From the NCBI GenBank assembly GCA_029856435.1, contig JAHQXB010000024.1, positions 1 through 36,520 of the forward strand: a stretch of DNA of 36,520 nucleotides, given 5' to 3'. The position numbers and the translations under genes were made by a program. Positions 1-35,256 of the stretch are shown in pieces. The DNA is from Candidatus Jordarchaeia archaeon (GTDB lineage Archaea > Asgardarchaeota > Jordiarchaeia > Jordiarchaeales > Jordiarchaeaceae). The stretch's first letter is position 1, and each line of letters opens with the position of its first letter. The notes under the pieces were generated by a model. The model saw nothing but the letters and a program-made list of their open reading frames with translations, had not been told where the DNA came from and ran no database searches.

Positions 1-23
1 GCTTCCAGCGTTTAGAGTAGGCT

Positions 24-231
24 TTACGCCCATCTCCTCATCTGCTGGTTCGGGGGCTCACGGCTCCCCCATCCCATAGAGCTCGTTACCCTATGGGCTA
101 TATTTACACACGCATTCAGGTCTATGTCGTATTTTCTGCAAGGGAACATCCCAAAAACTTTTTAGATTGTAAGAGTTATTTAAGTTCAACCGCAATTCAT
201 CCCCCCCTTTCGGAAGGGGTCTTCTTGCGAA
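24..231 (-). mobile_element. Remnant of an IS200/IS605 (IS1341-type) element: TnpB C-terminal fragment plus upstream left-end hairpin; runs to the window edge
   Basis: Minus-strand frame 161..24 reads KVFGMFPCRKYDIDLNACVNIAHRVTSSMGWGSREPPNQQMRRWA*, with the DxDLNA(x)xNI C-terminal TnpB signature; stop codon just upstream (162-164). Hairpin CCCCTT-TCGG-AAGGGG at 204-219 flanked by CAATTCATCC and TCTTCTTG, shared with the element at 15.8-16.2 kb. Confidence 0.6.
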
Positions 232-359
232 GTGTATATAAAAAGGTTGAGTTGGCGGGTAATAGTTTCAATCAGAAGAAGGGGAAAAGGTCGAGAAGGT
301 TAGGGGGCTTTGTTTCCACCTTTTTGTGAACGTTGTATTATTCGATAGCCTTTTTTGGC

Positions 360-1019
360 TCATATTTTAATTCTATAAGCTTCGGGGAAAACTGATTCAG
401 ACGGGGAATATTTAGAGGGGGTGGTTGCAGTAGGGCATCCAATTTGAGGTTTAATTAGACTGTCTGTAGGGGGTAATGTTTTTGGCGAGATTGTTGATTT
501 ATTTAGGCTTTCTTGTGTTTCGAATATGATATGGTTTATGCTGTCCATGCTTTCTTGAACATTGACGTTTTGAGCTACGCTGGTTTCGAAGTATTTGGCG
601 TTAATCGTGGAACTGTATTCTCTCGCCTCGCTCTCATCAACTTGTCGGGGAAGATCAATTTTGTTACCTATAAGTATGCAGGGAACGTTACTAAGGACTC
701 CGTTTACTTCTTGGATCCATTTTTCGAGGTTTATGAAGGTTTCACGCCTTGTGACGTCATAAACGTAAATGATGCCTCGGGCGCCTCGGTAAAAGTTTTG
801 GCGTACAAACTTGAACTGCGGCTGGCCGCCTATGTCCCAATACTGGGAAATAATTTCTACACCGTTTATAGTCAGCTTTTTTGTGGCGAAATTTGCACCC
901 ACAGTTGCCATATAATTTACATTGAAGGTGTTTTGAGTATATTTCATAATGAGGCTGGTTTTACCTACACTTGCATCGCCGCATATGACGATTTTGTAAG
1001 TTTGTTTGGAGGCGGACAA
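360..1019 (-). CDS. Rab/Ras-like small GTPase
   Basis: P-loop GDASVGKTS, G3 WDIGGQ, G4 GNKIDL, G5 ETSVA; TTG start. Confidence 0.93.
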   Translation of the reverse strand: MSASKQTYKIVICGDASVGKTSLIMKYTQNTFNVNYMATVGANFATKKLTINGVEIISQYWDIGGQPQFKFVRQNFYRGARGIIYVYDVTRRETFINLEKWIQEVNGVLSNVPCILIGNKIDLPRQVDESEAREYSSTINAKYFETSVAQNVNVQESMDSINHIIFETQESLNKSTISPKTLPPTDSLIKPQIGCPTATTPSKYSPSESVFPEAYRIKI

Positions 1020-1550
1020 TGGATTTTGCCTTCTTTCACTCCTTTTCCCTAATTTATAGTTAGGCTAAATAATATTTAAATTTTACTATGATGAAAAGTA
1101 TAAACAAAAATAAAAAGTATAACGAATTAATATCTATAAACATTTAAAAAAATCATATAAAATATAACAAAAGAAAAACCACCAGAATCAGGAAAACCAT
1201 CCACAGGAAGACCCAAAAACAAATGTTTAAAGCAGATTTAGAAAACCAAGCCTACCACATAAGCCTTAATCACCGATATCCAAAAAGATCCAAGTAAAAA
1301 ATAAAAATCGGAGACATAAGACTATTAGTTAGCCCCCAAGGTTCAACACTTCAATGGGAAGGATTTGCCTTGCGGAGAAAAATTTTAGCAATCATTTTGA
1401 TTCTACTATTCCTTGGAACCTTATTGGCCGCACTCTTTACAGCCATATATTAATAGCAAAACAATTGCTCAGAAACAGGTGAGGTGTTAAAGTAGCTAAA
1501 AACTATTTAGATCATTGTGACTATCCTAACTCTTTCGAGTTACACAATTT

Positions 1551-2687
1551 TTATTCGGTTAGCGGTGCGTACTGTTGCAGTCTTCTGAGGGCTTGGGTTT
1601 TTTCTTTTGTCTCGGTTTTTGCTTCTTCCACCACTTTTTTTAGGAACGCTGTTGCCTCATCCATGGATTTTTTGTTAACCGGGTAAGGAACTCCATCTTT
1701 GCCCCCGAAGGCAAAAGAATATTTCACCGGGTCCTTCCAGCTGGGCGGTTTTCCATATATTAGTCCTGATATCATAGCTAGTGCTTTTACTGTGGATGGG
1801 CCTATTCCCCTGAAGGAGAGGAGTTCTTCATAGTTTTTGGGTTGAGCTTGGTAGGCTTTCATTAGGGCTTTCCAATTTACACTTTTCAAGAGGTTGAGGT
1901 GTAAGGGAGGAGATACATTGGTTTGAGGCACCCATTTTAGGAGAGTCTCCTGGTTTAGGGGTTTGTCTGATAATATGGTTTTGAGGTGCTGAGGATTATC
2001 ATTCACTAGGTCTGTTGATATTTTTCTACACTCCTCACTATATTTAGAGGTCATGTCCAGTACCTTTTTGTGGGAGACTTCTCCCACTATTGCGGTGTGC
2101 GGCTCCTCAACAAATGTTTTGAAGGTCCCTTTGAGCCAATGGTATCTGCGGGCTTTTCTGATTTCTGGATTCATACCTTGTTGTATTACGCTCCAATCAC
2201 CTTCCTCCGTTATAAAGATGCAGTGATGATAGAGCTGGTAACCGGCTTGTATGGCGGTGTTATCCACCTTTGCAGACATGCGGCTTGCATACTTTAGGTC
2301 TTCTACCTTTGCTTCCGAAAGATCAAAGAGTTCCCCTATTTGAGGTATTTCAAGAGGTGTCTTTCTGGAGGTTGAACCTTTACCTCCAGCTACCGCTATC
2401 CCGTGTTCTCCTGGCCTCATAGCTAGCTTTAGGGCTGAGCATGTTACCGTGGTGGTTCCGGAGCTGTGCCAGTCGAAACCCAACACGCAGGACAGAGCTT
2501 GGAAGAAGAAGGGGTTTGAGAGTCTCTGGATTAATTCCTTTGCCCCATACTCATCGATGATTATGGAAACTATGGCATCTGCCAGCTTAACCATACGGCC
2601 GAATAGCCACTTTGGAGCCTTTCCTCCATGCAAGGGGAGATCTGCAACACCTGCCCGGTACATCCTTCCTTCATCCCTAAGAATCAC
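1551..2687 (-). CDS. DUF763 family protein (start may be the internal ATG at 2663, MYRAGVADLPLHGG)
   Basis: Characteristic N-terminal GVADLPLHGGKAPKWLFGRMVKLADAI and DWHSSGTTT; helix-hairpin-helix-like FRGIGPSTVKALAMIS. Confidence 0.85.
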   Translation of the reverse strand: MILRDEGRMYRAGVADLPLHGGKAPKWLFGRMVKLADAIVSIIIDEYGAKELIQRLSNPFFFQALSCVLGFDWHSSGTTTVTCSALKLAMRPGEHGIAVAGGKGSTSRKTPLEIPQIGELFDLSEAKVEDLKYASRMSAKVDNTAIQAGYQLYHHCIFITEEGDWSVIQQGMNPEIRKARRYHWLKGTFKTFVEEPHTAIVGEVSHKKVLDMTSKYSEECRKISTDLVNDNPQHLKTILSDKPLNQETLLKWVPQTNVSPPLHLNLLKSVNWKALMKAYQAQPKNYEELLSFRGIGPSTVKALAMISGLIYGKPPSWKDPVKYSFAFGGKDGVPYPVNKKSMDEATAFLKKVVEEAKTETKEKTQALRRLQQYAPLTE

Positions 2688-2784
2688 TGAAACGTAGATG
2701 AATTTAAATTGTTCCCAAAAAATTAGAGAAATATAAAATATGTGTTAAAAATGAAAATGATAATTACAAAAAGTTTCTTGGTTT

Positions 2785-3969
2785 TTAGAATTCGGCAAGG
2801 GTAGTTACGGGTTTTACGCGATTCTTTGCAGTAAAGAGTTGGTATAATTCCACTAGTTCTTCGTGGGCTACACTTGTTTTCCTGCCAAAAAGGTACTGTT
2901 CCTGTATCTTGTTTAAAATCTTGCTTATGACGGGGTCTGTTTTTTCGACATTTATACCAAATTCTTTAAGTATGAAGACTATACTTTCTCTACCTGTTGT
3001 CTCCCCTATGACTATCTTGTCTCTCATAGAACCTTCTTTTATGCCCACCTCTGCAGCCCTCACTTTTTCATAAAGGTTCACGTCTCTGAGTACACCGTGA
3101 GCATGAATGCCGGACTCGTGGCGGTAAATGTTTAAACCAGTAATGGGAGTGTTTGGTGGCGGGTCTATGCCAGACACGTTTTGCACAAATGTGGCTAGTT
3201 CTGCCAGTTTGCTCACATCGTATTTCTTGATGTTGAAGTGTTTGTAGAGATTGTATAGGACTTGCTCAAGGGAGGTGAAGCCGCCGCGTTCGCCCAATCT
3301 GCAGACACTGGTGTCCAGCCACTTGGCTCCTGCCCTGTATGCTTCTAGAGTGTTACCCACACCCAAACCCATATCGTCGTGCCCATGAAATTCTATGTCC
3401 ACTTTAATTCTCTTTGCGAGTTTTGAGATGATGTTGTATGTTTCATGAGGTATGAGTTCTCCCAATGTATCGCAGTATCTTATTCTGTCTGCGCCTGCTT
3501 CGGTGACTGCGTCAGCGAAGTCTATTAGGTATTCGGGTTCTGTGCCAACACTTTTTTCAGCGTTTACAGATACGTATAAATCGTGCTCTTTTGCGAAGGA
3601 TACCGCTTCGCACATGTTTTCTATTATTTGTTCCTTGGTCATCTGTAGTTTCTGTTCACGATGATGTTTTTCTGTTGCTATGGACAGAGCTACGGCTCCG
3701 AATTTAAGTTTGGTGTTAAGAGATTTCTCTAGGTCTACTTTTAAGCCCCTGTGCCAGACTAGCAACTTTTTATCTAGTCCTATTTTGTTTAGTTCTCGTA
3801 TCAAGAAGTAATCTTTGAGCACGTATCCGGGACAAAAGACTTCTATTTGGTCTATTCCTATCTCGTCCAGCCTTTTGGCTATTTCTACGCACTCATATAG
3901 TGTGAAGTATACTCCAGGCATCTGCCTGCCGTCTCTCAGAGTAGTATCACAAATGTATACATCATGCAT
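2785..3969 (-). CDS. Homocitrate synthase / isopropylmalate synthase family (LeuA/NifV/AksA-like)
   Basis: DTTLRDGRQMPGV active-site motif, EFHGHDDMGLGVGNTLEAYRAGA, HESGIHAHGVL; HMGL-like fold. Confidence 0.88.
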   Translation of the reverse strand: MHDVYICDTTLRDGRQMPGVYFTLYECVEIAKRLDEIGIDQIEVFCPGYVLKDYFLIRELNKIGLDKKLLVWHRGLKVDLEKSLNTKLKFGAVALSIATEKHHREQKLQMTKEQIIENMCEAVSFAKEHDLYVSVNAEKSVGTEPEYLIDFADAVTEAGADRIRYCDTLGELIPHETYNIISKLAKRIKVDIEFHGHDDMGLGVGNTLEAYRAGAKWLDTSVCRLGERGGFTSLEQVLYNLYKHFNIKKYDVSKLAELATFVQNVSGIDPPPNTPITGLNIYRHESGIHAHGVLRDVNLYEKVRAAEVGIKEGSMRDKIVIGETTGRESIVFILKEFGINVEKTDPVISKILNKIQEQYLFGRKTSVAHEELVELYQLFTAKNRVKPVTTLAEF

Positions 3970-4246
3970 TTACTACACCTTTGATACAAATCATATTTTT
4001 TCCACTCAGTTCCTTAAGGGTAGGAAATTGGTTTGTTACTATGCATTCATTATTTATATTTGTATCGGAAATATATACTTGTACCAAATAAAATTTGATT
4101 ATTAATTTACATATGTAAAAATAAATTTGGTACAATGTAAACATTTTTATTTTTATGTTAAATTTATTGGAGACAACTATTTTTAACTCTATCGGAAAAA
4201 TTCAAGTGGGAGATGGTTCCGGCCGCAAATCCTTCTATTGTCACTC

Positions 4247-4936
4247 CTATTCTGTTTTTCCCAATTCGGGGTAAAATCGGCTTGCTGAGTCGCAGATCCC
4301 ATTTAGAACACACTTCGGACATTTAGGTTTAGGCTTACAGATGCGCCTTCCATGCTCAATCATGTTTATGTGAAATGAGTAAACTTGCTCTTCGGGAACA
4401 ATTTTTTGGAGTATTTTGTGTGCCTTAAGGCGGTCTGCGTTTCCAATTAGGCTAAGTCTTTTTGATACTCGATGAATATGGGTATCTACGGGTAGAACTG
4501 GCTTGCCGAATGAGAAGAGAAGGACACAGGCCGCGGTTTTTGGACCCACACCTTTGAGCTTTGTGAGAAAGGATAACGCTTCCTCCGTGGGAATTTCTTT
4601 TAGGTAAGATAAGTCAAGATTTCTTCTCTTCTCCATAATTGCGACAAGTGTTCCCTTTATCCTCTTGGCTTTAATGTTGCCCAGCCCGCCAATCCTTATG
4701 ACTTCTGCTATTTCCTCTTCAGAGGCGCCTATGAGGTCTTCCCAAACAGGATATTTTCTCTTCAGGTTAGAGAAGGCAGAATAACTATTTCTATCGGAAG
4801 TGTTCTGAGACAATATGGTTAGCACCAGCTGGTCGAGGGGGTCAAACTTCTTTTTCCACTTTTTCTCTCCATACTCCCGATTCAGAAGCTCTATTACTCT
4901 AATTACCTTCACATTCACACCCGTACTTTCCTCCAA
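4247..4936 (-). CDS. nth: Endonuclease III (DNA glycosylase/AP lyase)
   Basis: LTILSQNTSDRNS, HhH LKGVGPKTAACVLLFSFGKPVLPVDTHIHRVSKRL, C-terminal 4Fe-4S loop CKPKPKCPKCVLNGIC. Confidence 0.92.
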   Translation of the reverse strand: MEESTGVNVKVIRVIELLNREYGEKKWKKKFDPLDQLVLTILSQNTSDRNSYSAFSNLKRKYPVWEDLIGASEEEIAEVIRIGGLGNIKAKRIKGTLVAIMEKRRNLDLSYLKEIPTEEALSFLTKLKGVGPKTAACVLLFSFGKPVLPVDTHIHRVSKRLSLIGNADRLKAHKILQKIVPEEQVYSFHINMIEHGRRICKPKPKCPKCVLNGICDSASRFYPELGKTE

Positions 4937-5054
4937 AAATGTTAATTTTTACACAAGCCCCCTAACAGGCTAATGGGAAAAAATCCTTTGTATATCTTAA
5001 ATTTTCCAACAAAAGAAACGAATAAAATGAAAAAAGGGGGAATTTAGGACTTGT

Positions 5055-6098
5055 CTATTTTGGTTCTAGTTTTTTGAAGACTGCTGGTGCAATCAGTGTT
5101 ACCCATAATCCCATTAGGGCATAAACTGGGAATTGAAGCGGCCCCCAAGGAACCTTGTCTAAGAGGTAGTATGCGGGCAGAGCAACTATTGCGCCTAGAA
5201 TAATTCTTATGACAGCGTACTTCCAAGACTTTGGTGTTGTAAAATGAACATATTTTTGTTCCAAGATTGCTCCTGAAAGGAAGCCTGCTATAGCCCCAGG
5301 AAGATACCAACTTATTCCCCATTCAAAGGGATATACTATGAGCAATATGAGTGGTAGAGTTCCCGTTATGTAGCCAGCGGTGAGTAGATATAGGTACCAG
5401 CCCACTTCCCAGTTGAAGGGAATTACTGAAGCAATGAGGAGGAGAACAATAACTATGATTACTATCCTAATCCAAGTACTCTTTGGAAGTTTTGCATCGA
5501 TTAAGCTCCAGGTTCTATCAGCAATTAGCGCAAACACTGCAAAGATGAGTAGTCCTAGGAGGATGCCGAAAATCACGTCTGTGGGCCAATGTGCTCCCAA
5601 GTAAACTCTGCTTATGGAAACAAGGACTGACACCAAGGCGGCTAGTGCAAATAGGAGGATACCCCGTTTTGACACTGCGGGGGCTTCCTTCTTTGCAAGC
5701 CAAGCAAGTGTAAACGCGGCGGCGGTGACTGTTTGTGCATGTCCACTAGGCATTGAGGGCCCCTCTGGAAAGTATAGTTTCTTGGACTCGAAGAATGAGG
5801 GTCTGGGCCGGCCAATAACATATTTTAGAGTGAAGTTGATAAGCGAGCTGAAAACGAGGAGCAGTGCTAGAAATATGCCTTCCCGCTTGTAGCCAAGCCA
5901 GTATATTATTGCAGTTAGTACAAATAAGGCCATTTCGTTCCCCAAAGAGGTGATAACAAACCAGAATTTGTCAAGAAGGGGATTCCCACCAAGGAATCCC
6001 CAAGGGGTCCAGAAACTTCCCTGAATAGTCCAAAGAACTCCTAGATCCCAAGTATACCAGTAATTTAGAGCCATAATTAGAAATAGAGATTCTTCCAT
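5055..6098 (-). CDS. PAP2-superfamily membrane phosphatase
   Basis: KYVIGRPRPSF, MPSGHAQTVTA, SRVYLGAHWPTDVIFG (three PAP2 motifs) and multiple TM segments. Confidence 0.9.
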   Translation of the reverse strand: MEESLFLIMALNYWYTWDLGVLWTIQGSFWTPWGFLGGNPLLDKFWFVITSLGNEMALFVLTAIIYWLGYKREGIFLALLLVFSSLINFTLKYVIGRPRPSFFESKKLYFPEGPSMPSGHAQTVTAAAFTLAWLAKKEAPAVSKRGILLFALAALVSVLVSISRVYLGAHWPTDVIFGILLGLLIFAVFALIADRTWSLIDAKLPKSTWIRIVIIVIVLLLIASVIPFNWEVGWYLYLLTAGYITGTLPLILLIVYPFEWGISWYLPGAIAGFLSGAILEQKYVHFTTPKSWKYAVIRIILGAIVALPAYYLLDKVPWGPLQFPVYALMGLWVTLIAPAVFKKLEPK

Positions 6099-31911: not shown

Positions 31912-32115
31912 ATGTGCCGTGCAGCCGATTCCAGCCCGGAATGCGGGAAGTTCGAAAAACCCAAAGAGAGCAGGGCCACAACTGGGAACATCCTCCCACC
32001 GAAAGCAGGAGAGATGTGCTCGCTTCAATCGTTCCCCGGGAGAAAAACTTTGAAACTTGAGGGAGGAAAACCCAAAGTTACGCAAGGTTAACGCTGGGTC
32101 AGAACGGTTTTTATT
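31912..32115 (+). ncRNA. Candidate structured non-coding RNA, family unknown
   Basis: GC-rich island in AT-rich flanks; helices ATTCC/GGAAT (31928-31942), GAGC/GCTC (31968-32021) enclosing ACATC-CTCC/GGAG-A-GATGT (31988-32017), AACTTTG/CAAAGTT (32046-32079); TATA-like CTTTAAAA at 31887-31894; T-rich end at ~32107. Confidence 0.45.
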
Positions 32116-32416
32116 TATGGTTGTCTTGGGCTGTTTTCACTTCTTCGACAACCATTGTTCCGGAAACTACTTGGTCTACTGAGTGGATTACTGCCCCCAG
32201 GCTCTCGATTTTTTCCTTTAACTCATTGTAGTTTAGCTTGTTTCCTTCGATTGTTATTTTAACACTTTCGGTTTCGGCGTCAACCTCAATAAGTGTAATG
32301 TTGACCCCCATAACTCCGTTTACTTTTCCCAGCTCTTCTGCAAAGTCTGGTAAAACTGGTTGGTGTGGTTTAAGAACATCGAGGACTAAGCGTTTTAAGC
32401 CATAACTATTGCCCAT
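32111..32416 (-). CDS. DUF211 family protein
   Basis: KRLVLDVLKPHQPVLPDFAEELGKVNGVMGVNITLIEVDAETESVKITIEG; internal Met at 32416 preferred over 32485. Confidence 0.85.
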   Translation of the reverse strand: MGNSYGLKRLVLDVLKPHQPVLPDFAEELGKVNGVMGVNITLIEVDAETESVKITIEGNKLNYNELKEKIESLGAVIHSVDQVVSGTMVVEEVKTAQDNHK

Positions 32417-32571
32417 TTTTCTTATGGCACCTCGCCCAACTGTATCAAATTGAAGGATACTATTTAAAAGTATTGACAAACTCAAACAAGCCGATTCTCA
32501 CAACTGAATTTTTTTCTAAACAATTTGAGAATCTGAATGTGTGGTTGGAGTGTTTGATATTTTAGCCTTTT

Positions 32572-33315
32572 TTATTGTTGCTTGAAAATCGGATATTCTT
32601 TGAGATAGTATTTTTCGGTACAATTTTGACAGCTCTTACTTATGTTGCTCCAGCGTTCTTCGAATATCGTGGAGCAATAATTTATGATGCATTCATCATT
32701 TGTTGCCTCGGCCAAGTCTCCTTTTTCGGAGAGCCCGCTGCTGGTTAGGTTGGCGCTACCTCGATAGACTACCAATCCGTCTGCAACTATGAATTTGGAG
32801 TGGGCAAAGCTGCAAAGCTTAATTTGTATGTTAGATTCGGATAACATCTTTATGAGGATGCAGCCTTGCTTCCAAGCATTTTTCTCCAATACTTGCACAT
32901 CTGGAGGGGGGTGATCATTCTGATATTTACTCCTTTTTTGATTTTTGGTAAGGGTGTCGAGAAGGTCAATTCGGTAGAGTTTATTTTCTGTCCTTAAGGT
33001 TTTTACTTGGAAGAACAGGTGGCTCATAATCATTATTTCACTTGATGCTTCCCTCAAGATTTGTATTGCCTTTAAGCCGATTTCTGGTCCGTGCAAAACC
33101 ATACTTGCGGTCTCAGTTTTCTGGGGTCGCATACTATTCCTTTGTTTTTCGTAAATGCTGTCTAGTAGATCAGCTCTTTCTCTATATTCGTAAAGTTTGG
33201 TTCTGATCGAGTTTCTCAACTCCTGCTTTATGTGCTTTTCTAGTAATTTGGAGAGTATTTCGGCAGATTTTCTGTAATTCTCACTCGCTTCTTTGAATTG
33301 TTCCCCCTTCTCCAA
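32572..33315 (-). CDS. MIT-domain plus phospholipase D-like (HKD) protein; 5' end probably truncated by frameshift (see finding)
   Basis: FKEASENYRKSAEILSKLLEKHIKQELRNSIRTKLYEYRERADLL MIT helices; HSKFIVADGLVVYRGSANLTSSGL HKD motif. Confidence 0.75.
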   Translation of the reverse strand: MEKGEQFKEASENYRKSAEILSKLLEKHIKQELRNSIRTKLYEYRERADLLDSIYEKQRNSMRPQKTETASMVLHGPEIGLKAIQILREASSEIMIMSHLFFQVKTLRTENKLYRIDLLDTLTKNQKRSKYQNDHPPPDVQVLEKNAWKQGCILIKMLSESNIQIKLCSFAHSKFIVADGLVVYRGSANLTSSGLSEKGDLAEATNDECIINYCSTIFEERWSNISKSCQNCTEKYYLKEYPIFKQQ

Positions 33316-33417
33316 GATAATTGCCTCCGTAGCTATTTTCCAAGCATTCTTATACTCCTTTTCAAACCGTGTTTTTTAGTTATAAGGCACATTCATCACT
33401 TGAGAGACCATAGCTTT

Positions 33418-35256
33418 TCAAACTGAGATTAATAACCATAGTAAGGCTAAAGAAACTCCGCAGATAAAGAATGGTAAGATAATTATCTTTAAAGTGTTTA
33501 CTGTTTCTTCTACTCCTTTAAAAAAGACGTTTAACTTTTTATCAGTCCAAATTTTAATGTTTGAAATGTTGAAAACTTTTGTTCCAATTTCCACCTCTTC
33601 CAAGTCTGCGATGGCTCTTCTGGTGCTTTTCACTATTTCCTCGATTAAATCCTCGTGATTTATTGTTCGACCCACGGGGTAATAGTCAGGCTGGTGGATG
33701 GATGGCGCATTTACAGTGTGGGTGTCAGAGGTGAGAACTTCAACTTCGTCAACGAGCTTTTCTTCTAGAAGACGGCTAATTATTTTATCTCTCAGCCCTA
33801 TAATCATATTGTTTCCATCAATAACAATTAAAGCTGTTCTCTGCATCCAATGGTTGTCCTCGAATCTTTTAGGAACATCGAGCTTCTCATCATCCAGCCA
33901 AGTTTCAATAATGTTTGCAGTTATCCCTTCCTCCCCCAATCCATAATCACGATAGACACTAGGAAACCTTGTTCTAGATACGCCGTATCTAATTTTGGTA
34001 GCCTTTTTTAGGGACCCCATTTTTTTGATTGATTCTTCAACAGCGTTTAAAATGTTTTCAGCAGCGGGAGTGTTGGGTTCCACAAGAACTTCTGCGTCTA
34101 GAATGCAGTTATGAGAATCTATGAAGAACACGCTATCGCCTTCCAAGCCACTTTTTTGCATTTCATTCTTGGCTCTTTCCAAAGCGGACAAGCCTACTTT
34201 CAGGTTGATATCATCTGTTATTTCGGGGGAGCGGGTGGAAATCATAATTATACTCTTCCCCATGACGGCGGAGAGTATCTTAGCCTCATTTTCGTGTACT
34301 CGATGGAAAGGTGTGGCTGAATCACTAAATTCGATTTCCTTTAGTTTCCCTACAATCTGTTTAATTGCCTTTTGGGTTTCCCTGACGCTGCAAAGGTTCT
34401 GAGCGTGAGTGCACGCTCCATGAGTAACAGAGAGTATAGTATCATTTTTATTCTCGATTTTTTGTGCCAAGAGGCGGGGGAGAGTTGATGAGCCCGCCTC
34501 CTTGAAGGGACCGTAATGGATAAAGGAGGAGAATATCAATCCCTTCAATTTGTGGTTCTTTTTGGATCTGAAGGCAACTAGAAGAGCTGGAAGGCTTGCT
34601 TTTTCTCCAAATTTGTCAGTAACGCTATCTATTTTTTGTGAATCCTTAAGAATCCACTCTAGGAAAAATCCACGAATCAACTCATAACCGCTAACTCCCA
34701 GCCTCTTTTTAATTGGCTTTTCTATTATGTGAAACGCCACAAAATTGGGTATCGCAAGAATAACTGCTGCGACAATGAAGGTGACTAGCCAAGGAGACAG
34801 GTAAGTGGTCTTAAGGTTGCCCACAATTATTGCAAGGAAAGTTATACCGGAAAGTGGTAGAATACTTGAAAGCAATACACTGAGCGGGATTCCAAAGGTG
34901 GAAATAGTTATCAATATTACAAGGCAAAGCGCAAAAACGAATGCCGCCCCGAAAAATGTTGCGATTAAGGAAAGATCTGGAATCTTCAGAATCGCGGCAA
35001 TAAAAGCTCCTGCGAAGAAGAAAAACTCCCACACAGCAACAAAAATCAGACAAAAAGCCAATGATCTAGATAATGAAAAAATGGGGCTTTTAATCTTACC
35101 AACAAAGTACAATAAATAGGAAGAAAAAAACATTGGAACAGCAAATACAAAAACACCCACCCCAACGCCATAGAGTAATATCCTATCCCAGTCGCCTTCA
35201 GGAATATAAGAAACCACACCCATCACAATACTTAGTAAAACCCCGGTCAGAGCCAA
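33418..35256 (-). CDS. DUF2070 membrane protein (N-terminus likely extends upstream to ~35376)
   Basis: Multiple N-terminal TMs, HGACTHAQNLCSVRET, DSHNC, SDTHTVNAPSIHQPDYYPVG, C-terminal TM. Confidence 0.85.
   Translation of the reverse strand: MALTGVLLSIVMGVVSYIPEGDWDRILLYGVGVGVFVFAVPMFFSSYLLYFVGKIKSPIFSLSRSLAFCLIFVAVWEFFFFAGAFIAAILKIPDLSLIATFFGAAFVFALCLVILITISTFGIPLSVLLSSILPLSGITFLAIIVGNLKTTYLSPWLVTFIVAAVILAIPNFVAFHIIEKPIKKRLGVSGYELIRGFFLEWILKDSQKIDSVTDKFGEKASLPALLVAFRSKKNHKLKGLIFSSFIHYGPFKEAGSSTLPRLLAQKIENKNDTILSVTHGACTHAQNLCSVRETQKAIKQIVGKLKEIEFSDSATPFHRVHENEAKILSAVMGKSIIMISTRSPEITDDINLKVGLSALERAKNEMQKSGLEGDSVFFIDSHNCILDAEVLVEPNTPAAENILNAVEESIKKMGSLKKATKIRYGVSRTRFPSVYRDYGLGEEGITANIIETWLDDEKLDVPKRFEDNHWMQRTALIVIDGNNMIIGLRDKIISRLLEEKLVDEVEVLTSDTHTVNAPSIHQPDYYPVGRTINHEDLIEEIVKSTRRAIADLEEVEIGTKVFNISNIKIWTDKKLNVFFKGVEETVNTLKIIILPFFICGVSLALLWLLISV

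Follow-up and report, generated by a model that had tools for sequence, protein, structure and literature searches.

The closest described counterpart in layout of the gene analysed here is MITD1, in which a MIT domain is followed by a phospholipase D-like (PLD) fold (PDB 2ymb) and which is not known to carry a catalytic HKD motif. Nuc (1byr), NucT and Zucchini/MitoPLD have a single HKD motif and a PLD fold without a MIT domain; Nuc and NucT exemplify the small PLD proteins with one HKD motif, which are nucleases. Vps4/CdvC combines an N-terminal MIT domain with an AAA ATPase domain, and binding of the Asgard Vps4 MIT domain to ESCRT-III has been established experimentally (PMC7240154). Human MITD1 uses its MIT domain to bind ESCRT-III and its PLD fold to bind membranes (PMC6015221, PMC9477494), and the membrane-binding PLD fold is required for abscission (PMC6015221). 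The Asgard ESCRT papers that we examined are concerned with Vps4, with ESCRT-I/II/III and with components linked to ubiquitin; none mentions phospholipase, PLD or MITD1 in its main text, and no paper combining Asgard and MITD1 was found in the literature searched.

We analysed a 36,520-nt stretch of DNA from a Candidatus Jordarchaeia archaeon (contig JAHQXB010000024.1, hereafter the window). By its sequence, one Asgard-archaeal gene in this stretch combines an ESCRT-docking (MIT) domain with a phospholipase D/nuclease-type enzyme domain. No published description of this gene, here called MIT-PLD, was found in the literature searched.

Domain architecture of the MIT-PLD frame

The first-pass annotation of the window had described an open reading frame at 32572–33315 encoding a MIT domain fused to a PLD-like domain with an HKD-like motif. 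Translation and homologue searches showed that the MIT-PLD frame is real. However, the listed version takes an internal TTG (33315) as its start and is missing most of MIT helix 1. The complete open frame consists of 267 codons plus a stop codon (32572–33375, minus strand) and is closed at its 5′ end by an in-frame TAA. The predicted N-terminal MIT domain was found at 33160–33351 (minus strand), where PF04212 matched with E 5.0e-9 and 38.2 bits against a curated cut-off of 30. This match extends upstream of the listed frame to 33351, in a stretch that contains no ATG, GTG or TTG codon. In the C-terminal half, PF13091 matched residues 172–242 of the 267-aa frame (32650–32862, minus strand; E 4.7e-9, 36.6 bits against a cut-off of 27), which is the part of the PLD-like domain matched in the window copy. 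The HKD motif itself, HSKFIVADGLVVYRGSAN (32749–32802, minus strand), is an exact and single match to the pattern HxKx4Dx6GSxN in this frame, and the pattern did not occur in any of 20,000 shuffled versions of the orthologue sequence. A Cys motif, CxxCx4C, lies near the C terminus (32605–32631, minus strand). In the alignment its third Cys is retained in 13 of the 14 members and is replaced by Tyr in the window copy. All 14 aligned members matched PLDc_2, and in the intact orthologue L007 both domains were recognised (PF04212, E 1.7e-9; PF13091, E 3.7e-18) with the PLDc_2 model covered almost in its entirety.

Profile comparison and structure prediction bore out the proposed identity of the N-terminal domain as a three-helix MIT bundle. 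When the N-terminus of the intact family was compared by hhalign with Asgard Vps4 MIT domains aligned from 38 loci, the probability was 98 (E 2.6e-13), versus 5.6 for the TPR control and 1.2 for the Snf7 control. The AlphaFold model of the orthologue contains helices at residues 10–35, 39–57 and 63–92, with block pLDDT values of 79–93 over residues 11–70, and Foldseek superposed the yeast Vps4 MIT domain (4niq) at an rmsd of 1.2 Å (TMt 0.86). Thus, a TPR or generic coiled coil as the N-terminal domain was ruled out. In a single-sequence search with the MIT domain the engineered TPR protein 9gzg ranked first, yet none of its domains passes alone; the MIT domain of MITD1 (4a5x) was matched with E 0.0055, about equal to archaeal Vps4 MIT. 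The NCBIfam CdvC model also matches residues 10–112 of MIT-PLD, which is the MIT part; unlike Vps4/CdvC, MIT-PLD has no AAA ATPase domain. Since the position that we take to be the equivalent of human VPS4A Leu64 in the MIM1 groove is Arg or Lys in the intact MIT-PLD copies, canonical MIM1 binding may be altered.

Neighbourhood, distribution and probable decay of the window copy

As the first-pass annotation had noted, MIT-PLD lies directly downstream of a gene for a DUF2070 membrane protein (33418–35256, minus strand; PF09843, E 7.1e-104). An intact DUF211 gene follows on the downstream side (32111–32485, minus strand; PF02680, E 2.7e-36). DUF2070 directly precedes MIT-PLD in all three genomes of the window's genus in which we found the gene (G000, G001 and G003), and the two genes are separated by 6–19 nt in two close relatives (L025 and L026). 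Synteny identified the linked DUF2070 as an additional paralogue: G000, G001 and G003 each have three full-length copies versus one in the sister genus f2. In G000, the window's genome, the copies are that at 33418–35256 of the window and those on contigs C66 and C44, only one being linked to MIT-PLD. In G004, a genome of f2, the syntenic block is present without the DUF211/MIT-PLD/DUF2070 cassette.

Among the Asgard genomes searched, MIT-PLD was present in three of the four of the window's genus, and in the fourth (G002) the contig ends right after DUF211, at the MIT-PLD site. A contig scan identified close protein relatives in Candidatus Jordarchaeia QZM_A3 (L025) and Candidatus Freyarchaeota SQRJ_82 (L026), both Asgard archaea; these were found with a three-sequence alignment, and the scan patterns reach close relatives only. 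In a more distant Asgard family (f10), each of the eight genomes examined encodes MIT-like plus PLD proteins, most of them as two paralogues; in G015 the second was seen only as short fragments. The f10 N-termini gave hhalign probabilities of 94.6 (paralogue 1) and 40 (paralogue 2) against Vps4 MIT. Unlike MITD1, the window's group (f1) and f10 paralogue 2 retain an intact HKD motif, and the Lys is missing only in f10 paralogue 1, where HxN replaces HxK. Thus, catalysis would not be universal in the family. At three f10 loci (L105, L107 and L109) the Lys-less paralogue belongs to a conserved block that also holds one gene for a Ras-like GTPase and one longin/roadblock-like gene, both named by eye. 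A further MIT-PLD copy, cut by a contig end and in the window's gene order, was found at positions 1–5907 of G199:C269 (L111); this contig belongs to a bin of another family that is 9% contaminated and is possibly misbinned. L112 (G149:C516, 9822–13814, minus strand) encodes a 1331-aa protein that ends in a PLD-CxxCx4C module, with no recognisable MIT domain before the module.

Comparison with these relatives indicated that the window copy has probably become a pseudogene recently, with intact copies in close relatives. DNA alignment showed that an ATG at 33409–33411 corresponds to the start codon of the L007/G003 orthologue, and an in-frame TAA (33376–33378) follows 11 codons on, leaving a remnant of the original 5′ end at 33376–33411 (minus strand). 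The HMM alignment of the window copy reads through '1 TAA'. In addition, the BLASTN gap list and alignment against G003 revealed three deletions of 1 nt each (net −3) within 32905–32950 (minus strand). These deletions, at about 32909–32948, put approximately 15 residues out of frame and replace the conserved RIITSPP stretch. With the normal start lost to the nonsense codon and a core strand disrupted by the deletions, any product would be truncated and would lack most of MIT helix 1. Outside the scrambled segment, private amino-acid changes polarised with G001 numbered 16 in the window lineage versus 5 in G003. The adjoining DUF2070 gene had 15 (window) versus 16 (G003) such changes and no frameshifts.

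If the lesions were instead sequencing or assembly errors of this metagenome-assembled genome, the gene would be functional in this organism too. The deletions do coincide with or adjoin runs rich in A and C, their net effect is a multiple of a codon, and dN/dS between the window and G003 copies, whose proteins are 82% identical, is 0.153, still below 1. However, four lesions fall within 0.8 kb versus none that shifts the frame of the adjacent 1.8-kb DUF2070 gene, and replacement changes, one of which costs a conserved Cys, are in excess. We therefore consider the error explanation rather unlikely; the TAA, the three deletions, the excess replacements, the lost Cys and the intact neighbours together point to probable recent decay. 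Intact orthologues in the two congeneric genomes are, judging from their codon substitutions, under purifying selection (G003–G001 dN/dS 0.063, with dS saturated).

The PLD half and its candidate relatives

Profile and model comparisons place the PLD half nearest to catalytic enzymes of the Nuc/Zucchini/PLD3 type. Sequence-profile matches in the PDB were PLD3, MitoPLD and Nuc. A model of the PLD half alone, of low confidence (pLDDT 54), matched TrmBL2, F13, Nuc, Zucchini, NucT and FAM83 among the 50 listed folds, and in this low-confidence model the matches to Nuc, NucT and Zucchini span the entire half. The structure models were built from only 2–3 sequences, and the PLD half is poorly modelled as a consequence (mean pLDDT about 54).

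One alternative is that MIT-PLD is a lipid-acting phospholipase D, with the MIT domain bringing the enzyme to ESCRT-III necks, where cleavage of archaeal lipid headgroups would change curvature. The PLDc_2 domain with its intact HKD motif is compatible with such an activity, as are weak matches to a bacterial phospholipase (7e0m) and to MitoPLD and the linkage to a gene for a membrane protein, DUF2070. Nevertheless, the nuclease activity of small single-HKD proteins such as Nuc and NucT, the coverage of the whole PLD half by the Nuc, NucT and Zucchini folds, and the lack of an obvious membrane anchor in MIT-PLD (by eye) make this alternative unlikely, and a nuclease or other phosphodiesterase is the reading that we prefer.

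The first-pass annotation had also compared the gene with eukaryotic MITD1. The shared order of MIT then PLD was confirmed by the domain matches, and MITD1 (2ymb), of similar length, was the first Foldseek match of the full-length model (E 3.4e-6), albeit with a low TM-score of 0.32. Kinship with MITD1 found no such support. MIT_C (PF16565), the Pfam family of the MITD1 C-terminal domain, did not match the MIT-PLD protein at E ≤ 1 and exceeded its cut-off in none of the 228 genomes of the phylum, and MITD1 was absent from the 50 best PDB folds listed for the PLD half alone (a low-confidence model). MITD1 orthology was rejected by the family model, and MIT-PLD, which differs further in its intact catalytic HKD motif and extra CxxCx4C tail, is MITD1-like in layout with membership of the MITD1 family not established.

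These results bear on the idea that the MIT-then-PLD order of eukaryotes descends from the Asgard protein, which would then act at division as an ESCRT-III membrane tether rather than as an enzyme. Identical domain order, similar size, the Foldseek result, the match of the MIT domain to 4a5x and the loss of the HKD Lys in one f10 paralogue all fit such an ancestor, as does the requirement for the membrane-binding PLD fold of MITD1 in abscission (PMC6015221). Against it stand the unmatched MIT_C model, the lack of MITD1 among the 50 best folds of the PLD half, a sequence profile that finds catalytic PLDs instead, and the patchy occurrence of MIT-PLD in Asgards. Moreover, fusions of MIT to other domains recur in Asgards, so such an arrangement could readily arise independently. 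We regard this line of descent as improbable.

Finally, that MIT-PLD is a defence-related PLD nuclease of the DrmC/DpdK kind with an incidental MIT-like helical domain is highly improbable: 13 of the 14 family members matched DpdK at E ≤ 0.001 (best 2.1e-11) and many matched DrmC, consistent with a weakly similar PLD half, but the scores are far below the NCBIfam equivalog cut-offs (22.6 versus 133 and 17 versus 100 bits), the MIT identity is strong, no recognised defence genes, DISARM or Dpd included, were found around MIT-PLD in the loci inspected, and the absence of relatives from viral contigs also led us to reject a viral origin.

ESCRT genes, other MIT fusions and the proposed role of MIT-PLD

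The ESCRT-III search recovered two Snf7 (ESCRT-III) proteins over cut-off in the window genome, alongside an MIT-AAA Vps4. Co-occurrence of MIT-PLD with ESCRT genes, a check that the first-pass annotation had put forward, was found in so far as 10 of the 11 f1 and f10 genomes with MIT-PLD encode two Snf7 proteins, with none in the less complete G043. However, it is not diagnostic: MIT matches, mostly in Vps4-sized frames, occur in 204 of the 228 genomes of the phylum, and so near-universal a presence means that ESCRT co-occurrence carries little weight. MIT-PLD lies outside the ESCRT cluster; in the 3.5-Mb assembly the window is contig C88, the ESCRT-III genes are on C154 and Vps4 is on C94. 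Both ESCRT-III proteins have tails that finish in helices rich in leucine and isoleucine, which appear MIM1-like by eye.

Asgard genomes contain other MIT proteins. The contig that carries both ESCRT-III genes of the window genome also encodes a second non-Vps4 MIT-like protein (L114, G000:C154, 2892–3524, plus strand), whose MIT match is below cut-off (E 5.9e-4) and which has an additional C-terminal domain. L123 (G142:C10, 1055–1888, plus strand) has two MIT domains in tandem, then a SHOCT-like segment and a zinc ribbon. In L127 and L128 a MIT domain precedes TPR-like repeats (recognised by eye), and L124 is a weak case of a MIT-like plus longin-like protein. MIT, a proline-rich linker and a helical C-terminal domain are kept in three genomes of f23 (L118, L119 and L120), and further MIT proteins exist besides these fusions. 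In L121 (G028:C6, 891–1583, minus strand) MIT is fused to the C-terminal nuclease domain of NucS, with both Pfam models over cut-off. As in MIT-PLD, the MIT domain is thus joined to a nuclease-type domain, although the nuclease fold is unrelated. This second fusion supports the idea of ESCRT-recruited phosphodiesterases.

On balance we lean towards a model in which intact MIT-PLD is a phosphodiesterase or nuclease, probably dimeric, that is docked through MIT on ESCRT-III tails, the window copy being a probable pseudogene. In this model, the product of the intact gene would be a soluble adaptor-enzyme whose MIT domain attaches to ESCRT-III filaments at their C-terminal tails. Docking is plausible because the MIT domains of Asgard Vps4 (PMC7240154) and human MITD1 (PMC6015221, PMC9477494) bind ESCRT-III. 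The PLD domain would thereby be delivered to membrane-remodelling or division sites. Since a single HKD motif supplies only half of an active site, this domain is probably a dimer, and once delivered it would hydrolyse a phosphodiester, the putative substrate being more likely nucleic acid, with lipid headgroups as the alternative. Metal ligation is a possible role of the C-terminal cysteines, and the gene is probably co-expressed with the dedicated DUF2070 paralogue that directly precedes it.

A broader proposal, which we offer only tentatively, is that Asgards recruit catalytic nucleases or phosphodiesterases such as MIT-PLD and MIT-NucS through the ESCRT-III tail code, which would couple membrane scission to the removal of DNA or lipid from the neck; the Lys-less f10 paralogue would then be an archaeal counterpart of the inactive PLD tether of MITD1. 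MIT-domain effectors are a source of the many jobs of eukaryotic ESCRT, and an Asgard MIT-PLD, beside the other MIT fusions, would place MIT-based enzyme recruitment before eukaryotes.
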